The notes beneath the pieces are model-generated. The model was given only the letters and a program-made list of their open reading frames with translations, did no database searches and was not told where the DNA came from. Of a stretch of 28,641 nucleotides of DNA, positions 14,274 to 28,641 are shown in pieces. Positions within the stretch are counted from its first letter, which is position 1; each line of letters begins with the position of its first letter. This DNA is from a virus: positions 1 through 28,641 of IMG/VR virus record IMGVR_UViG_3300025141_000552; one strand, given 5' to 3'. The position numbers were made by a program, and so were the translations under genes.

Positions 14274-16811
14274 ATGGCAGAAAGAATCGTTTCGCCCGGA
14301 GTATTTACCAACGAAGTAGATCAATCATTTCTAGCACCAGGAGTTGCACAAATAGGTGCAGCAGTAGTAGGTCCTACAGTAAAAGGACCAGCATTAATAC
14401 CTACACAAATAAGATCATTTGGAGAATATGAATCAATATTTGGACCACATTCCAAAGATTCGTATGTTCCTATGCTAGTTAATGAATATTTAAGAAATGG
14501 CGGAAATGTAATCAATGTAACACGTTTATTATATGAAGATGGATATACGTTAACCAATGGCGCATTGGCAGTAGTTGCATATAGTGGTTCAGTATCTGCA
14601 TCACTTATTGAACCGGCTATGAGTCAATCAAATTTTGGTTATCCTATAGTTACTCATGTATTACATCCTACACAACCAGTAACTACAGATGGTTTTGCCA
14701 AAAGTTTATTATTTTTAGATTCAACTTCTGGAAGTTTTTCATTACATTATTCAGGATCTTTAGTTGCCGGTTCGGATTCAGCAATTAATTTTGACGGATC
14801 ATTTTTAGTAGCAGAAGATGTTGGTATATCGGCATCAATTGATGATGATAGTAACAAATATATTACAAAAGTATTTGGTAGATCTCCGAAATCAGTAGAC
14901 TATCCTCTATATGTTCAATATGAAGATAAAGAAGCTTTTGGAAATAGAATTGTAAGCACTACTGATACTATAGTTTCATTATTACCAATTCCAACATATG
15001 CAGTTGCAACAGATTTTAGTGTTGCGGCAACTCCATATATAACATCACAAAAAATTGGATCTACTACTAAAAACTTGATTAAATTTCATACTTTATCTCA
15101 TGGTACATCTGTAAATCATGAAGTTAAGATTGGAATTGAAAATGTTAAAATAGCAGCAGAAGTTGCAGATCTAAATGGTTATGGAACATTTGATGTTGTT
15201 GTTAGAAGAGTAAATAATACAAATATTCCTAATTCGCCTTATGGTCAAATTGACGACACAGATTCTGTACCAGTAACATTGGAGGCATTTCGTAATGTTA
15301 ATTTAGATCCAAATTCGGTTAGATATATTTCTAGAGTAATTGGAGATAGATATCAAACAATTACTGATGCAGGAGATCTTCTCGTAAATGGAGATTATTC
15401 AAATTTATCTAAATTTATAAGAGTTTCTGTTGATGCTGGAGTTTCAGAAGGAACTAATGATAAATCATTAATACCATTTGGATTTAGAGCTCCAAAATCT
15501 CCAATACCAAATATATTATTTGAAACTAGTGCTAGTATTAATATTAATGTTAATTTTGCATCTGCTTCATATGTAACATCACAAACACCATCAGGTGGAA
15601 GTCATAACGCTGTAAATTATCATGGATTTGATTTTACTAATTATAATAATTTAAATTATTTAGCTCCTATTCCATCAACTGGAAACACAACAGCAAGTAA
15701 TGCTGATTTTTATTTAGGAGACGTTACACAAGACGGATCGGCTAATTTTCCAACATTGGCCACTGCATATAGTGGATCATTACAAGATTCTTTAACAGGT
15801 GGAACATTTACAACTAAAGTTGCAACCACAACGAGAAAATTCATAGTTCCATTACAAGGAGGGTTTGATGGCGCAAAACCAAACCTAAAAAAATATTCAG
15901 GAACAAATATAACTGCAGCAAATACCTTTGGCTATGATTGTAGTTCTGCTACATCAACAGGTACCAAAGCATATAACAAAGCATTTACATTATTAGAGAA
16001 TACAGATTTTTATGATATTAACATGTTAATAACACCAGGTATTATTGATAGTTTACATTCATCAGTAACTACAAAAGCAAGAAATTTAGTAGAAGCTAGA
16101 CAAGATACATTTTATGTAATGGATACAAATGCATTAACAGATAGTATATCTACCGTTGAATCGCAAGTAACTACATTGGATAATAATTATACAGCAGCAT
16201 ATTGGCCATGGTTAAAAGTAAGAAATCCAGATGGAAATATTCCACAATGGGTACCACCATCTGTAATAGTACCAGGAGCATTAGCGTTTAATGATGCGGT
16301 AGCAGCACCTTGGTATGCACCAGCTGGTTTAAATCGAGGAGCCTTAACAAGTGTGGAAAATACATATATAACTCTTAAACAAAAACAAAGAGATACCTTA
16401 TATGAAGCACGTGTTAATCCTATTGCTAACTTCCCTAATGATGGAATTTGCATTTGGGGTCAAAAGACACTACAAGCAAGACCAAGTGCTTTAGATCGTG
16501 TTAATGTGCGTCGTTTATTAATTACGGTTAAGAAATTTATTGCATCGTCGACTAAATTCTTAGTATTTGAACAAAACACGGCAGCTACTAGAAATGCATT
16601 TTTATCAATTGTTAATCCATATCTAGAACAAGTAAAAAGAGATCAAGGATTGTCTGCATTTCGAGTAGTAATGGATTCTACTAATAATACCCCAGAAACA
16701 ATAGATCAAAATATTTTATATGGACAATTATTTTTACAACCAACAAGGACAGCAGAATTTATAATATTAGACTTTAATATACAAGCTACTGGCGCAAGTT
16801 TTCCAGAATAG
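14274..16811 (+). CDS. Tail sheath protein (T4 gp18-like)
   Basis: The sheath is the contractile outer tube of the tail. The protein has 845 residues, larger than T4 gp18 (659). The N-terminus PGVFTNEVDQSFLAPGVAQI (8-27) is characteristic: sheath proteins open with a PGV---E-D segment. The C-terminal domain carries ICIWGQKTLQARPSALDRVN, VRRLLITVKKFI and VFEQNTAATRNAFLSIVNPY, which form the conserved sheath handshake core. The extra length lies in the middle (roughly 100-500), rich in Ser, Thr and Asn, probably surface domains facing outward. AGGAG lies ~8 bases before the ATG. It is followed by the tube gene, as in T4. Confidence 0.95.
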   Translation: MAERIVSPGVFTNEVDQSFLAPGVAQIGAAVVGPTVKGPALIPTQIRSFGEYESIFGPHSKDSYVPMLVNEYLRNGGNVINVTRLLYEDGYTLTNGALAVVAYSGSVSASLIEPAMSQSNFGYPIVTHVLHPTQPVTTDGFAKSLLFLDSTSGSFSLHYSGSLVAGSDSAINFDGSFLVAEDVGISASIDDDSNKYITKVFGRSPKSVDYPLYVQYEDKEAFGNRIVSTTDTIVSLLPIPTYAVATDFSVAATPYITSQKIGSTTKNLIKFHTLSHGTSVNHEVKIGIENVKIAAEVADLNGYGTFDVVVRRVNNTNIPNSPYGQIDDTDSVPVTLEAFRNVNLDPNSVRYISRVIGDRYQTITDAGDLLVNGDYSNLSKFIRVSVDAGVSEGTNDKSLIPFGFRAPKSPIPNILFETSASININVNFASASYVTSQTPSGGSHNAVNYHGFDFTNYNNLNYLAPIPSTGNTTASNADFYLGDVTQDGSANFPTLATAYSGSLQDSLTGGTFTTKVATTTRKFIVPLQGGFDGAKPNLKKYSGTNITAANTFGYDCSSATSTGTKAYNKAFTLLENTDFYDINMLITPGIIDSLHSSVTTKARNLVEARQDTFYVMDTNALTDSISTVESQVTTLDNNYTAAYWPWLKVRNPDGNIPQWVPPSVIVPGALAFNDAVAAPWYAPAGLNRGALTSVENTYITLKQKQRDTLYEARVNPIANFPNDGICIWGQKTLQARPSALDRVNVRRLLITVKKFIASSTKFLVFEQNTAATRNAFLSIVNPYLEQVKRDQGLSAFRVVMDSTNNTPETIDQNILYGQLFLQPTRTAEFIILDFNIQATGASFPE

Positions 16812-22312: not shown

Positions 22313-24796
22313 ATGAATATATTATATACAGAAGTTGATTCGAATTTAAGAAGTGAATTAGATACACGAGCAGCTGCTGGAATGTTTAGTAAAACTACAA
22401 AAGATTTGCAATATATGATCGAAAAAATTGCAAATGTTGAAATAACTGCATATGACGAATCTGATAGTAAGTCTGATATTGTTGGCAGACTCGGAGGATA
22501 TACAACAAGATCCGGCCGATTTATGCCAAATGGACAAATAACAGATCAATTTGACAAAATTCATCAAGGATATTTACAAGATCAAAAATATACGATAGAT
22601 AACATAGAATTTAATGATGAAGGAAGAGCAGCGAAATTAGTTTCAACTCATTTTGATGATCAATCTAAACGAGTAGGACCTTATGCAACAACTGTTGATG
22701 TAACAATTGGAGATCACTCAATGGGTTTATTAAATAAAGCATCTATTGCATTATCTATTCCAAATCCAAAGAGAGATTTAGATAATATAGAAAGTACATG
22801 GTTTCGTCCAGGCAGATTTGTTCGTATTAAAATAGTACATCCGGAATCGGCTGTAATTACTAGAGATGAAACTGGAGGTATATTACCAGATATAAAAAAA
22901 TCAATCGAAGTAGCTCAAGATAAATTAATTAAATCGCTTAAAAAGAAAAAAAAAGAAGGCGCAGATATTTTTATTCCAGAAAAAAAGACTGTTTGGCCGA
23001 AAATGAATGAAGTTTTTTTTGAAGGATTAATAACATCATTTGATTTTTCATTTCAAGCAAATGGTTCTATAGATGCAACATTGTCATTGACTGGAACGAG
23101 TAATGTATATACAGAAGTTAGTATGTATATGAATAATAATCAATCTGAAAAAGCAAAAAAACAAAAAGATAAAAAGCCTAATCAAAATCCTGTATTAGAT
23201 CCAAAGGTTGATATTGAAAGAAAACGAGAGATTTTAGAAAATATAGACAGTGGTAGTATATTAATGAGTGTATCTGGTAATGAATTAATAGCATCTGCTT
23301 CTGCAATGGGAGCTACTCCAGATATAATAGCACAATTAAAACAAACCGAAACTGCTTCCACAAGTTCTTCACAATTTTATGATGCATTTTATGATACTGT
23401 GAAAATGGATATAGCACTAAATGAAAGAGAACTCGGATTTCTAATTAGTCCTGGAGGAGTTGAATCGATATTATTTCAACCACGTGGTATCAACGAAAAT
23501 GATACTGATTCATTTATTATACATGGATATACAACACCACAAACTCCACCACAAGAAGAAGGCTCTTTTTCACCTCCATTAGTTCTTACCAATGAACATT
23601 ATGAACAGTATGTAACATTAGGATATTTAATAGAATATATTAATGATAATATTCTTACAGAAATAAATAAAAAAGTACCTACTGCTAATATATATTGTGA
23701 TGATAGCATATGTTTTAGCAATTATTACGAACATTTAACTTCATGTAATCCAGAAGAAATATTATTTTTACCTAATCCTAGTGGAACTGGAAATCTTTTT
23801 CTTGATCGTTCAACTCGTCAAGTTAATCAATACGGAACAACAATTTATTATGACTTACAGAAAACAGCACGTATGGCCGATTGGAAAGGTATTGCTGGAA
23901 AAATAGAAGAAACAGACGCAAATGGAAATGTAACAACGTCTGATGATAATGTAATATTTCCTACTAGAATTTTTATTAACATAAATACTATACGAGAAAT
24001 TATTATAGGTAAAGATGGAAAGGGGGGTATTTCTAAAGGAGGCAGTAGAGGATTTAATTTAAAAACATTTTTAAGTTCTATTAGTAATAAAATAAGTTAT
24101 GCTACAGGCCGAGCAATAAGTATGTCTGTCATGACACATCCTGATATATCAGATATGTTGCTATATACTGACAGAAAATATGTTAAAAGTAAATCTAAAT
24201 CAGATACTGTAGTGATAAAGCCATATCATATACCATTATATCAAGACACTGGCAAAGGAACATTAGTACGAAATTTTTCATTATCAGCAACAATTCCAGA
24301 ATCTGTAAAAAATTTATCATATGTATTAAATCAAAAAGGAGAAGATATATCAGAAGAAGAAATATCTCCATATATGAATTTTATGTATCAAAAGAAAGAT
24401 GTAGATAGTATTAATAAAGCATATAAAGAATATGGAAAGAGACATACAAAGTCTATACAAACTCTACAAGATGCTCGTAGAATATACGGAAACCATAAAG
24501 GAGTAATTGAAAAACAACATGCTTTATATAAAGCATTAATACAATATATTAAATATCCAACTGATGATATCCGAGTTAGCAATTTATTATCAGCTCCAAT
24601 ATTTCCATTTACTGCTAATTTTGAAATAGATGGTATTAATGGATTTAGATATGGAGATGTATTACAATTTGATGCATTACCATTAAGATACAGAGTAAAT
24701 ACTGTATTTAGTGTAATTAGTGTATCACATAATTTAACCACAAATGGTGAATGGACAACAAATGTTAAATGTATAATGCGGCCGAGTATAGACTAA
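22313..24796 (+). CDS. Baseplate hub protein
   Basis: This 827-residue protein has an N-terminal region with the segment GDHSMGLLNKASIALSIPNP (~138-157), a Lys-rich loop (KSLKKKKKEG, ~202-211) and FEGLITSFDFSFQANGSIDA (~236-255), the alternating strand pattern of hub proteins (T4 gp27 / P2 gpD class). The last ~55 residues (FEIDGINGFRYGDVLQFDAL, then YRVNTVFSVISVSHNLTTNG, EWTTNVKCIMRP) are the classic hub C-terminus: 'GD-----LP--Y----F-V--V-H------W-T'. It is larger than T4 gp27 (391). Middle parts are poorly conserved to my eye and may include a spike or carrier domain. The stop overlaps the next start (TAATG). Confidence 0.8.
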   Translation: MNILYTEVDSNLRSELDTRAAAGMFSKTTKDLQYMIEKIANVEITAYDESDSKSDIVGRLGGYTTRSGRFMPNGQITDQFDKIHQGYLQDQKYTIDNIEFNDEGRAAKLVSTHFDDQSKRVGPYATTVDVTIGDHSMGLLNKASIALSIPNPKRDLDNIESTWFRPGRFVRIKIVHPESAVITRDETGGILPDIKKSIEVAQDKLIKSLKKKKKEGADIFIPEKKTVWPKMNEVFFEGLITSFDFSFQANGSIDATLSLTGTSNVYTEVSMYMNNNQSEKAKKQKDKKPNQNPVLDPKVDIERKREILENIDSGSILMSVSGNELIASASAMGATPDIIAQLKQTETASTSSSQFYDAFYDTVKMDIALNERELGFLISPGGVESILFQPRGINENDTDSFIIHGYTTPQTPPQEEGSFSPPLVLTNEHYEQYVTLGYLIEYINDNILTEINKKVPTANIYCDDSICFSNYYEHLTSCNPEEILFLPNPSGTGNLFLDRSTRQVNQYGTTIYYDLQKTARMADWKGIAGKIEETDANGNVTTSDDNVIFPTRIFININTIREIIIGKDGKGGISKGGSRGFNLKTFLSSISNKISYATGRAISMSVMTHPDISDMLLYTDRKYVKSKSKSDTVVIKPYHIPLYQDTGKGTLVRNFSLSATIPESVKNLSYVLNQKGEDISEEEISPYMNFMYQKKDVDSINKAYKEYGKRHTKSIQTLQDARRIYGNHKGVIEKQHALYKALIQYIKYPTDDIRVSNLLSAPIFPFTANFEIDGINGFRYGDVLQFDALPLRYRVNTVFSVISVSHNLTTNGEWTTNVKCIMRPSID

Positions 24797-25416
24797 TGAG
24801 AAAAAAACTTTTTTATACAGCAGATGAAATAAGTAATAATTTATATACTACTGGCTCGTTGTTAATGTATGAAGACGGAACAAATTATATAGGATTATAT
24901 CATTTATATACTACCGGCGAAACATATACGGGTGGGAAGTGGTCTAGTAAACAATCAATTAAACTAATTCCATATGTAGAGAGAGATACTCCCATAAATA
25001 CAGTATATAATTCATTAAAATCTATAAATATCAGTACTAAACCAGTATCAAAATATCAACCTATGATTACCGAATCTGATAAACAATCAGGCTTTATAAT
25101 TCGATATTTTCTTAAAAAAGTAAATGAGCAATTAATATTGGAAGTTTCTGATAAAACTTATAAAAATTGGAAACAAGGATCGATTGATAACAAAATGTAT
25201 ATAGGAATTCAATTAAATTGGTATATAACTGGTGACATTGAAGATAAATACGATGGGCCCACTCTAATACGTGGAGTTATTAGTCAAAATAATCGACAAA
25301 TAAAAGCAGCAAAATTTACAATTTCTGATATAGATAATATATTAAATAATCCATTAGAATTATATAATGATATTGATTATATAGTACCAAAAGATATTAA
25401 CAATTCGGCTATTTAA
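24796..25416 (+). CDS. Probable virion protein of conserved unknown family
   Basis: This 206-residue protein starts at ATG 24796, overlapping the hub stop as TAATG. The upstream in-frame extension to 24769 is only the hub gene read in another frame. The N-terminus has NNLYTTGSLLMYEDGTNYIG followed by YHLYTTGETYTGGKWSSK (G-YHL----G-TYTG-K), a repeated-aromatic pattern I know from tail-region proteins of marine T4-like phages without an assigned function. The remainder is beta-rich with Lys and Asn. Its place at the end of the baseplate module makes a baseplate or tail role likely. No Shine-Dalgarno sequence. Confidence 0.7.
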   Translation: MRKKLFYTADEISNNLYTTGSLLMYEDGTNYIGLYHLYTTGETYTGGKWSSKQSIKLIPYVERDTPINTVYNSLKSINISTKPVSKYQPMITESDKQSGFIIRYFLKKVNEQLILEVSDKTYKNWKQGSIDNKMYIGIQLNWYITGDIEDKYDGPTLIRGVISQNNRQIKAAKFTISDIDNILNNPLELYNDIDYIVPKDINNSAI

Positions 25417-25439
25417 CTTTTTTTTCTTATTATTAATAT

Positions 25440-26762
25440 ATGATACTGGATCATGACGAAGAAGTTACTGCAATATTGCAAGATATACAAAATAAAAAAA
25501 CTTTATTAGTACCCATATTTTGTAACTCGCAACACCATGTATCTACATCAAATTTATCCGCAATATACATATATTCAGAAAATGATATAGAAGTTATAAT
25601 TCCAATACATCATACAGAGCAAGTAAGGGGCTTTCGCAAGTATATACACGACTTTTTACAACTAAAAGACATCTTTGTTCATGACAAAAAGAAATGGCTA
25701 CAAATAGGTGGAAATGATGCTGTATGGGATGTAAAAACATTGTGGTGGTACACCTATGGAGAGTCATATGAAGAATCACATTATCCCACACCAGCTCATG
25801 AATTTTATTGGCGCAGACATTCTAATTTACCACAAGTAAATGGTATAGTTCCAATGCAACAACATTTGTCTATGTGTCAAAAGATAAGAAAATATGCATG
25901 GCCAATGATAATAAACTCAAAATTATCAGATTCATATAAACAATTCAATAGCATATATCCTAAAGTATTTGCTGATATAGAACAAAATGGATTAAAAGTA
26001 ACAAATTCGTTTAAATTGCCTGAATTAATAAATAATGATTATGTTTATTCTCAATATCATTATCATACAGCAACAGGAAGACCGTCAAATGCTTTCAGAG
26101 GCTTTAATTTTGCAGCAATGAACAAAACAGATGGCACTAGAGATGCATTTTGTAGCAGATTTAAAGATGGTGCTTTAGTTGAAATGGATTTTGATGCATA
26201 TCATGTACGGCTTATTGCAAGATTAATAGGATATAAATTACCACATGGATCTATACATGAATATTTTGGTAAATTTTATTTTGGTGTAGAAACATTAACT
26301 AAAGAACAATATGAAAAAAGCAAACAAATAACATTTAGACTATTATATGGTAATATAGACAAAGAATTTTTATCAATTCCATTTTTTAAACAAGTAAATT
26401 CGATGATATATGAATTGTGGGATAAATGGAAGCGGCAAAAGTATATAGAAACCCCAATATTAAAAAGGCGTCTTAATTCAGACTTTTTAAAGAATATGAC
26501 CGCAAATAAATTATTTAATTATTATTTACAAGCAGTAGAAACAGAAGTATCTGTGCAAAAATTAGATAAAGTTCAAGACATATTAATCGGTCGTAAAACG
26601 TGTATGATATTATATACATATGACTCTATTTTATTTGATGTTCCTATATCAGAAGCTAAATACGTGCTTCCTGATATTAAAAATTCGTTAGAATCTGGAA
26701 ATTTCCCGGTTAAATGTAAAGTAGGAAATATTTATAGTAAAATGAAAACTATATTGTTATGA
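25440..26762 (+). CDS. Divergent family-A DNA polymerase-like protein
   Basis: This 440-residue protein carries the palm/fingers motifs of DNA polymerase I in order. HTATGRPSNAFRGFNFAAMN (209-228) equals the TATGR-S---NLQNI stretch. Motif A is VEMDFDAYHVRLIARL (247-262), with the metal-binding Asp250 kept and Klenow Glu710 replaced by His255. Motif B is SKQITFRLLYG (294-304), with the Lys, Phe and Tyr-Gly kept and the first Arg lost. Motif C is LYTYDSILFDV (391-401), where the usual HDE is YDS, keeping Asp395. Residues ~20-105 look like a worn 3'-5' exonuclease domain (FVHDKKKWL, then D97) without a clear DxE. It is about half the size of normal PolA. It lies after baseplate genes and overlaps the next gene by 4 bases. 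Activity cannot be judged, but both catalytic aspartates remain. Confidence 0.82.
   Translation: MILDHDEEVTAILQDIQNKKTLLVPIFCNSQHHVSTSNLSAIYIYSENDIEVIIPIHHTEQVRGFRKYIHDFLQLKDIFVHDKKKWLQIGGNDAVWDVKTLWWYTYGESYEESHYPTPAHEFYWRRHSNLPQVNGIVPMQQHLSMCQKIRKYAWPMIINSKLSDSYKQFNSIYPKVFADIEQNGLKVTNSFKLPELINNDYVYSQYHYHTATGRPSNAFRGFNFAAMNKTDGTRDAFCSRFKDGALVEMDFDAYHVRLIARLIGYKLPHGSIHEYFGKFYFGVETLTKEQYEKSKQITFRLLYGNIDKEFLSIPFFKQVNSMIYELWDKWKRQKYIETPILKRRLNSDFLKNMTANKLFNYYLQAVETEVSVQKLDKVQDILIGRKTCMILYTYDSILFDVPISEAKYVLPDIKNSLESGNFPVKCKVGNIYSKMKTILL
26728..26736 (+). promoter_or_regulatory. ATATTTATA motif inside the polymerase-like gene, before the nuclease-like gene
   Basis: An exact motif in the last 35 bases of the upstream coding region, 22 bases before the next ATG. 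This is the same spacing as in intergenic copies, so it may give the downstream gene its own transcript. It could also be chance in coding sequence. Confidence 0.35.
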
Positions 26763-27775
26763 CAGATATGCATAAAATTTTAACTGAATGGACGTATCGT
26801 TTAGATTCAGGATATCCCAAAACAGATTCAGATTATGAAGTGTTGCGAGATGTATTAGTAGAAAAAACTGATTTAAATAAGTCGGCTATTAATAATATTG
26901 TTAATCAATCAAAAGGATTAAAAGAACAAAAACAACAATTAAATGAACGATCAGACGATTATGATAGTGCAATTCGTAGCAGACTGGGATTAGAAGAGGA
27001 GGAACCTATACCTCAAGTTACAGGTAATTATGTACTTAATGCAGGACCGTTACCATTACACCCTGATGATGCAGAAATAGTTAAAACACTATGGCCAGAA
27101 ACAATGAATCTTAGTAATGTTGGTAAAGGAGAAATATCAATATATTGGTTGTATCAATATCAAAATCCACCTAAAGATACTGAAGATTTAAGAGGAGATG
27201 ATAACCCAGATTTAAAAATAGCTGGAGTTCCTGCAGAAATTAAAAGTTACAGTTCACACAAAAAACGAATTGGTTTAGGCCGGTTTTCAAAATTTAAAGA
27301 ATCTAGAAGAATAATATCAATATTATTTGGAATACAAACATTAACAAATTTATTTTCAGAAGAAAAAAAAGTATATTCAGATACTGATTTTTACGCAAAA
27401 GACATGATAGCTTCATTTGATAGTTTAATGGCTTTAGATGTTTTAGAAAATAAACAAGAATTAATGCAACGATTTCCGTTGTTTAAAACAATGTTTGAAC
27501 AAATCAATGAATTAAAAATTACTTTAAATTTACAAGAAGGTTATACTTCAACAGAAGGTGCAGCAGCTATATTTAAAAGATTAATAACTGAAAAATTCAT
27601 GATAAAACCTGGAAATCATGGTTATATTATGAATCTAATAGATAAAGATCCTGCTAATATTTATACATTTGAAGTAGATTTAGAATCCTTAACTGATGAA
27701 GATATATTAAAAAACGTTGCAGTATCTGGAGCAGATATTAAAGTTAACTATTGGGAGCTTTTTTCGAAAGGATAA
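26759..27775 (+). CDS. PD-(D/E)XK nuclease-like protein
   Basis: This 338-residue protein has an N-terminal segment KILTEWTYRLDSGYPKTDSD (6-25) followed by a helical Lys/Gln-rich part, a recurring N-terminus in phage proteins (L-EW-YRL--GYP). The middle shows GKGEIS with Glu125, then NPDLKIAGVPAEIKSY with Asp151, Glu160 and Lys162: E-x25-D-x8-E-x-K, the layout of a PD-(D/E)XK nuclease core. It overlaps the polymerase-like gene by 4 bases (ATGA), so the two are probably co-translated. A role in DNA end processing, head completion or recombination is possible, as is a catalytically dead structural protein. The nuclease reading is based on four residues and spacing only. Confidence 0.6.
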   Translation: MTDMHKILTEWTYRLDSGYPKTDSDYEVLRDVLVEKTDLNKSAINNIVNQSKGLKEQKQQLNERSDDYDSAIRSRLGLEEEEPIPQVTGNYVLNAGPLPLHPDDAEIVKTLWPETMNLSNVGKGEISIYWLYQYQNPPKDTEDLRGDDNPDLKIAGVPAEIKSYSSHKKRIGLGRFSKFKESRRIISILFGIQTLTNLFSEEKKVYSDTDFYAKDMIASFDSLMALDVLENKQELMQRFPLFKTMFEQINELKITLNLQEGYTSTEGAAAIFKRLITEKFMIKPGNHGYIMNLIDKDPANIYTFEVDLESLTDEDILKNVAVSGADIKVNYWELFSKG

Positions 27776-27778
27776 TTA

Positions 27779-28162
27779 GTGAAAACACAATTACTATGCA
27801 CATTTGCACATCGCAATAATCTTGATATCGTAATAGAATATATCAAACAAAACTTTAGTATACCAGAGAACCGAATATTTGTATTTGAAAACGCAAATAA
27901 ACAACATGAATTATATTGCACATATAATGCAGAAGATACCGGCTTCAGAGGTAAAAATACCATATCGATACATAGAAAAAAAGAAACAAATACTTTATAT
28001 ACCGTTAATGCTCTAAATGAAATAATTATAGAACAAAATAACGGAGTGTTAGACAAAAGTTTTCAATTATATTGGCCTAAATATGAAAATTCTTTTATAT
28101 TAACTGCTAACCCAGGATATAAAATTGTTGCATTAACATATTTTACAAGAATATCATTTTAA
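27779..28162 (+). CDS. Conserved small phage protein of unknown function
   Basis: This 127-residue protein starts with GTG (27779), with AAGGA ~6 bases upstream. The opening KTQLLCTFAHRNNLDIVIEY, RIFVFENANKQHELYCTYNA (~43-62), ISIHRKKETNTLYTVNALNE (~71-90) and NGVLDKSFQLYWPKYENSFI form a pattern that I have seen conserved in late regions of T4-like marine phages, without a known role. It is a compact alpha/beta protein with no membrane segment. It is in line with the two upstream genes (3-base gap) and so probably shares their transcript. Confidence 0.75.
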   Translation: MKTQLLCTFAHRNNLDIVIEYIKQNFSIPENRIFVFENANKQHELYCTYNAEDTGFRGKNTISIHRKKETNTLYTVNALNEIIIEQNNGVLDKSFQLYWPKYENSFILTANPGYKIVALTYFTRISF

Positions 28163-28180: not shown

Positions 28181-28474
28181 ATGATCAAATTAAAACCCTT
28201 ATTACAAGAATCACAACCACCAAAAGACAAAGTAATCGACATCAAAGGATCTTTACCATATGTCAATGTTATATATGATGATAATGGTACTACAGTTAAC
28301 ATTGACTTTGATGACTATGAGTTAGAAGATCAAGTAGATAATTATACTTGGCACGGTGATTTAAAAGGAACGGATCAACAAGGAGGGGATTGGACAGTAA
28401 TGGCATCAGCAGTTGTCATGGGTGGCGGAGATTATGATTGGGACGTGGATTGGGACACTATAAAAAAACAATAA
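28181..28474 (+). CDS. Small acidic protein with capsid-targeting-like N-terminus
   Basis: This 97-residue protein is acidic, with many Asp, Trp and Gly (DYDWDVDWDTIKK at the C-terminus). The first ten residues MIKLKPLLQE followed by Ser look like the N-terminal targeting peptide of T4 internal head proteins, with an L-x-E site for the gp21-type protease. It is the last late-type gene before a change of promoter. No known domain is visible. It could be a packaged internal protein ejected with the DNA; this is a hypothesis from the N-terminus. Confidence 0.65.
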   Translation: MIKLKPLLQESQPPKDKVIDIKGSLPYVNVIYDDNGTTVNIDFDDYELEDQVDNYTWHGDLKGTDQQGGDWTVMASAVVMGGGDYDWDVDWDTIKKQ

Positions 28475-28562: not shown

Positions 28563-28641
28563 ATGAGTTTAGATTTAAACGCCATCAAGGCAAAACTTAA
28601 CCAATTAAACAAAACCGACGAAAAGAGAAACAATCTTTGGA
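28563..28641 (+). CDS. gp32-like single-stranded DNA-binding protein (3' end outside window)
   Basis: Only the first 26 residues are visible: MSLDLNAIKAKLNQLNKTDE and then KRNNLW. An N-terminus of this form (M-x-hydrophobic-D/N-LxAIKAKL--LN, then a Trp) is what I recall for gp32-type ssDNA-binding proteins of distant T4 relatives, where it is followed by KP-G-x-IRI-P. The protein coats single-stranded DNA in replication and recombination. AAAGGA lies 7-8 bases before the ATG, behind an A/T-only repeat. It marks the switch from late structural to replication genes. Confidence 0.6.
   Translation, partial: MSLDLNAIKAKLNQLNKTDEKRNNLW

Follow-up and report, generated by a model that had tools for sequence, protein, structure and literature searches.

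Why does a gene for a half-size family-A DNA polymerase stand directly behind the tail genes of a phage, and what would such an enzyme do there? The question is raised by a 440-residue open reading frame (ORF) near the end of IMGVR_UViG_3300025141_000552, a viral contig of 28,641 nucleotides that was analysed at its full length and is called the window below. By its major capsid protein the contig comes from a Far-T4-type phage, a group described in PMC4360716: identity is 55-56% to the capsid proteins of Flavobacterium phage immuto, Microcystis phage Mel-JY01 and the uncultured phage LR756508, and 38% to that of Rhodothermus phage RM378.

A divergent family-A DNA polymerase

The gene and its landmarks, equated with Klenow residues, are as follows.

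25440..26762, + strand: divPolA1 gene, divergent family-A DNA polymerase of 440 aa (Pfam, PHROG, PDB, AlphaFold2)
Residues ~1-135, ~136-185 and ~185-440 of its product: degenerate DEDD-exonuclease-like domain, shortened thumb, and palm with fingers
26187..26204, + strand: motif A, with catalytic Asp250, Asp252 and His255 (positions of Klenow D705, S707 and E710)
26322..26351, + strand: motif B, with K295, F299 and Y303 (Klenow K758, F762 and Y766)
26613..26627, + strand: motif C, YTYDS, with catalytic Asp395 (Klenow D882)

The ORF is a divergent family-A DNA polymerase that has kept all catalytic residues. Its residues 171-427 match the Pfam family DNA_pol_A (E 6e-9, 35.7 bits, above the Pfam cut-off of 34.3 bits), the protein matches PHROG 17 'DNA polymerase' (E 2.5e-12), and its best match by sequence in the PDB is Klenow, which a profile of the relatives also recovers (E 3e-6) together with other Pol I structures. 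An AlphaFold2 model built from 38 relatives (pLDDT 83, pTM 0.85) finds Klenow first in a PDB fold search (E 1.7e-16, TM 0.72), and PolA proteins are among its matches in a search of viral structures. The original prediction had described a half-size polymerase-like protein with a degenerate exonuclease-like N-terminus, the motifs TATGR, A (D250), B (SKQITFRLLYG) and C (YDS with D395), and the replacement of Klenow Glu710 by His and of the HDE Glu by Ser. All of this holds, and the comparisons with Klenow and DNA_pol_A that it had proposed bear it out. In the alignment with Klenow, Glu710 becomes His255, Glu883 of HDE becomes Ser396, His881 becomes Tyr394 and Ser707 becomes Asp252.

Relatives are numerous in viral contigs (231 with a single query, at least 339 with a profile), and nearly all the complete ones that were kept measure 430-443 aa. 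Eight Klenow residues, R668, D705, K758, F762, Y766, N845, Q849 and D882, have equivalents (R214, D250, K295, F299, Y303, N360, Q364 and D395 of the window protein) that are invariant across 83 aligned sequences with identities as low as ~26%. Given this invariant active site and at least 339 viral relatives, the reading of the ORF as a polymerase is not due to chance. The departures from Klenow are equally fixed, since His255 and Asp252 show no variation in the same 83 sequences and Tyr394 is invariant too, while the Arg754 equivalent is lost in most members (mostly to Tyr). Glutamate at the 710 position is kept in T7 gp5, in LP65, in a Twort-like phage and in the full PolA of immuto itself. 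The dN/dS values of ~0.06-0.25 in usable pairs indicate purifying selection; the pair L051/L040, compared without gaps, gave no usable value, its copies probably differing by an indel. Together, the invariant catalytic residues and the purifying selection argue that the enzyme is active and that its active site has changed. A pattern scan of ~85,000 bacterial and archaeal species found no relative, and a cellular origin was rejected on that ground.

The N-terminal 135 residues retain an exonuclease-like shape but, as far as the sequence alignment goes, not the catalytic carboxylates. Alignment and model show no acidic residue where the first strand of this domain ends, Asn134 falls at Klenow Asp501 in a weak Klenow alignment, and a Pfam search of the protein yields no match to the exonuclease family PF01612. 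The catalytic aspartates of the 3'-5' exonuclease thus appear to be replaced, and the domain looks dead. The thumb is cut down as well: residue ~187 aligns to Klenow chain position 224, in a weak alignment, and residue 190 to position 318, so that ~90 Klenow thumb residues are missing.

Among known enzymes, the large fragments of E. coli (Klenow), Bacillus and Taq polymerases share the fold, motifs A-C and the catalytic residues with divPolA1, which differs from the Klenow type in its size (440 versus ~600 aa), its shortened thumb and the changes E710H, H881Y, E883S, S707D and R754 to mostly Tyr. Bst and Taq polymerases also carry a dead exonuclease domain. Among phage PolA proteins, those of Herelleviridae (LP65, Twort-like) come next in similarity by tblastn. 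Their motif C, HDS, likewise lacks the Glu, but they reach 988-1072 aa and keep the Glu at the 710 position.

The window ORF is a further member of divPolA1, which Yutin et al. described in 2024 in 14 phages around immuto as an enzyme extra to the regular polymerase (PMC11348598); what had been put forward as new thus belongs to a kind already published. That paper reports replication genes downstream, an intact catalytic palm, a truncated thumb and an inactivated exonuclease, and names MK892584 and LR796625 as members. Membership of the window protein rests on its comparison with the immuto divPolA1, to which it is 31% identical over 92% of the query (tblastn, E 3e-51) with every motif co-aligned, and which shares with it the catalytic palm, degenerate exonuclease, small size, status as an addition to the regular polymerase and replication genes downstream. 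The ~440-aa relatives collected here, whose identity to the window protein is ~64-100%, make up a separate group much larger than immuto's branch. The divPolA2 of barbaviruses is similarly an extra divergent PolA beside a regular PolB, but according to PMC11348598 it has another N-terminal domain and a variable gene neighbourhood, and it is possibly an RNA polymerase.

Place at the head of the replication module

The genes that frame divPolA1 in the window are these.

14274..16811, + strand: tail sheath gene, in the upstream structural module
24769..25416, + strand: last gene upstream of divPolA1, 215 aa, no known family; precedes the polymerase in 54/55 loci
26759..27775, + strand: gene X, overlapping the polymerase stop codon, with a constant N-terminal ~52 aa and a body of swappable type
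27779..28162, + strand: gene Y, which belongs to no known family and is conserved in relatives, where it lies between X and gp32
28563..28641, + strand: start of the gene for a gp32-type single-strand DNA-binding protein, truncated where the contig ends

In relatives, the order runs sheath, tube, several tail genes, divPolA1, X, Y, gp32, uvsX, 5'-3' exonuclease, DnaB-like helicase and RNR, and immuto, Mel-JY01 and LR756508 have the same arrangement around the polymerase gene. Wherever the flank suffices, gp32 (48/48 loci), the 5'-3' exonuclease (33/33, ~5 kb downstream) and DnaB (29/29) follow, and the upstream tail genes are as constant as these. The original prediction was right to place the gene after tail genes and mistaken in setting it outside a replication cluster; that view, with the late, virion-linked reading attached to it, arose because the window, a 28.6-kb fragment, ends inside the gp32 gene, just before the replication genes.

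A recombination mosaic tells to which side the gene belongs. The point of comparison is contig L004, whose divPolA1 is 99.5% identical to that of the window and whose gp32-start stretch matches the last 172 bases of the window at 96.5%. Between positions 25380 and 28641, identity to L004 is ~68% in the tail genes, 97.6% across the polymerase and the first ~165 bp of X, and ~96% in Y and the gp32 start, the body of X being largely different. Since the two contigs differ by ~32% in the tail genes and by 2.4% across the polymerase, divPolA1 travels with the replication side. The conserved gene order makes it the opening gene of the replication/recombination module of these phages. A small ORF of 97 aa (28181-28474) before gp32 is absent from the same place in L004.

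The main polymerase of the window phage, itself represented by the 28.6-kb fragment, is deduced from its relatives. Their contigs, where they reach far enough downstream, encode a PolB with an intact-looking exonuclease domain; L004 is one of them and has a clamp-loader-like ATPase alongside. In LR756508 the PolB-matching stretches lie in two frames, and immuto has a full 777-aa PolA with exonuclease in place of PolB. Unlike a replicase of the T7 gp5 type, with active proofreading and no partner, divPolA1 combines a degenerate exonuclease with a separate full polymerase in relatives, which bears out the earlier view that the ordinary replicase is another enzyme. Because a Toprim primase occurs in 8/8 genomes checked (PF01807 alone being too weak), a primase role for divPolA1 is unnecessary, and its use as a primase replacement was rejected. 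RM378 was rejected as a model for PolA in split form: its polymerase is of family B, and it has no PF00476 match. It does have a 318-aa gene annotated as 'similar to DNA polymerase I', whose product is possibly a 5'-3' exonuclease domain.

Queuosine-pathway genes were noted in L083/L175, L004 and L088: immuto (L083/L175) carries QueC/D/E/F and DpdA, and a GTP cyclohydrolase, a QueD-type gene and a TGT-family protein lie in the vicinity on L004. Such genes suggest 7-deazaguanine-modified DNA in these phages.

Roles beside a regular polymerase

We regard as fairly probable that divPolA1 is an accessory second polymerase, active and proofreading-deficient, which would fill gaps with the 5'-3' exonuclease beside a PolB replicase. 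Judged from its residues, the enzyme is probably active and probably lacks proofreading. Its processivity would probably be low, and it could act on short gaps at lesions, at recombination intermediates or where primers have been removed, in concert with the separate 5'-3' exonuclease, gp32 and UvsX, while PolB would replicate the genome. The polymerase and the 5'-3' exonuclease together would resemble a bacterial Pol I divided between two genes. Against such a role, E710H, H881Y and the loss of Arg754 could mean altered or weak activity, a DNA ligase was found in only 1/7 genomes, and RM378, with its 'DNA polymerase I'-like gene but no PF00476 match, indicates that genes of this kind do not require divPolA1. 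Yutin et al. infer a role in replication and report no experimental test of it. What the present data bring out is a widespread phage group that keeps a second, apparently proofreading-dead PolA beside a T4-like replisome. To divPolA1 as presented in the consulted passages of PMC11348598 they add hundreds more members, an invariant unusual active site (His255/Asp252), a putative sigma70-like promoter of a type common with the helicase gene, and a fixed place before the swappable gene X.

It is rather unlikely that the triad His255/Asp252/Tyr394 sets an altered choice of sugar or template (tolerance of ribonucleotides, of lesions or of the bases of 7-deazaguanine type that may occur in these phages). 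Glu710 is the ribonucleotide gate of Klenow; it is changed here, and the three changes are invariant in the 83 sequences. DpdA and the queuosine-pathway genes of immuto, with related genes on the L004 contig, would fit the same idea. However, histidine is not small and may still block a 2'-OH, and the Toprim primase is present. We give little weight to an active site rebuilt around invariant His, Asp and Tyr and specialised for an unusual substrate, be it ribonucleotide-containing, damaged or base-modified phage DNA, in a T4-like replisome where PolB is present already.

Nor is divPolA1 likely to be the main replicase itself, for instance of one strand, with the 'regular' polymerase in another role. 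The idea draws on synteny, as the neighbourhood of replication genes around divPolA1 is constant here and, according to PMC11348598, better conserved than the surroundings of the regular polymerase; it also draws on the persistence of divPolA1 while the regular polymerase switches family, stated in the same source and seen here as PolB versus the full PolA of immuto. Against it stand the half size, the shortened thumb and the apparent lack of proofreading, and on L004 divPolA1 coexists with the intact-looking PolB and the clamp-loader-like ATPase.

The original prediction had suggested, as one possibility, a polymerase made late and carried in the virion or used for DNA end repair, its gene lying after late-type promoters. 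Such an enzyme would act on injected DNA or in end repair. The position of the gene directly after tail genes speaks for this reading, as does gene X next door, which has a late-type motif and couples a constant head with swappable bodies, as would fit a packaged protein. The relevant signals in the window are the following.

25404..25433, + strand: probable divPolA1 promoter, with -10 TATTAT (25428-25433) and weak -35 TTCGGC (25404-25409)
2271, 4147, 10550, 10956, 11262, 14237, 17445, 18476, 26729 and 28167, + strand: forward copies of TATTTATA before gene starts

In the window, 10/12 forward copies of TATTTATA stand 12-40 nt ahead of a start codon (binomial p ~3e-14), mostly that of a structural gene, portal and sheath included, and the copy at 26729 sits inside the polymerase gene, before X. 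The tube gene is preceded by the motif in 15/16 cases, and TATTTATA may serve this phage group as its late promoter. Its reverse complement is the T4 late box TATAAATA, which was itself rejected as evidence, its forward-strand copies being few and its total counts not above shuffles. Upstream of divPolA1, TATTTATA is absent from 33 distinct sequences, 31 of which instead contain TTGnnn-16/18-TATnnT (1.8 in shuffles); the same pattern precedes the helicase gene in 18/20 (shuffles 0.6) and none of four genes examined on the tail side (tube, up98, up827 and up215). These matches rest on a consensus and do not prove transcription; they predict that divPolA1 has its own sigma70-like promoter in relatives, of a type common to the DnaB helicase gene. 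The window's copy pairs a good -10 with a weak -35, the strong form being found in relatives. Promoter type, synteny and the linkage with the replication block revealed by the comparison with L004 led us to reject the late, virion-linked reading as very improbable.

The least probable suggestion, an inactive relative turned to another use, could cite the substitution of Glu710, His881 and mostly Arg754, but it is scarcely credible in view of the purifying selection and of both catalytic Asp and the Lys758, Phe762, Tyr766, Gln849 and Arg668 equivalents being invariant to ~26% identity.

The gene X slot

Gene X is more unusual than the polymerase it follows. Its head has the pattern [IL]TEWxxRLxxGYP..., and its bodies fall into six clusters without mutual similarity detectable by blastp. 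Polymerases 95-99% identical can accompany X bodies at chance-level identity, and the bodies are <30% identical in 65/111 pairs with polymerase identity >=80%. The slot is at the same position in L003-L082 and at L170:15385-16461, and LR756508 has a similar head on a different body. No convincing family for X emerged from searches of Pfam, PHROGs and NCBIfam, and its weak structural model gave no fold match. The window body contains a PD-(D/E)xK-like pattern (E125, D151, K162), which recurs in some X bodies only. Overall, gene X resembles a slot for polymorphic effectors or internal proteins.

Between the polymerase and RecA genes of Mel-JY01, a 428-aa protein (L087:35406-36692) carries an S-adenosylmethionine lyase domain (PF23780, E 4e-10). 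S-adenosylmethionine lyase is a known anti-restriction activity, and this protein suggests an anti-restriction role for the X slot. Its start, MQFKQYILGE, is reminiscent of T4 capsid-targeting sequences.
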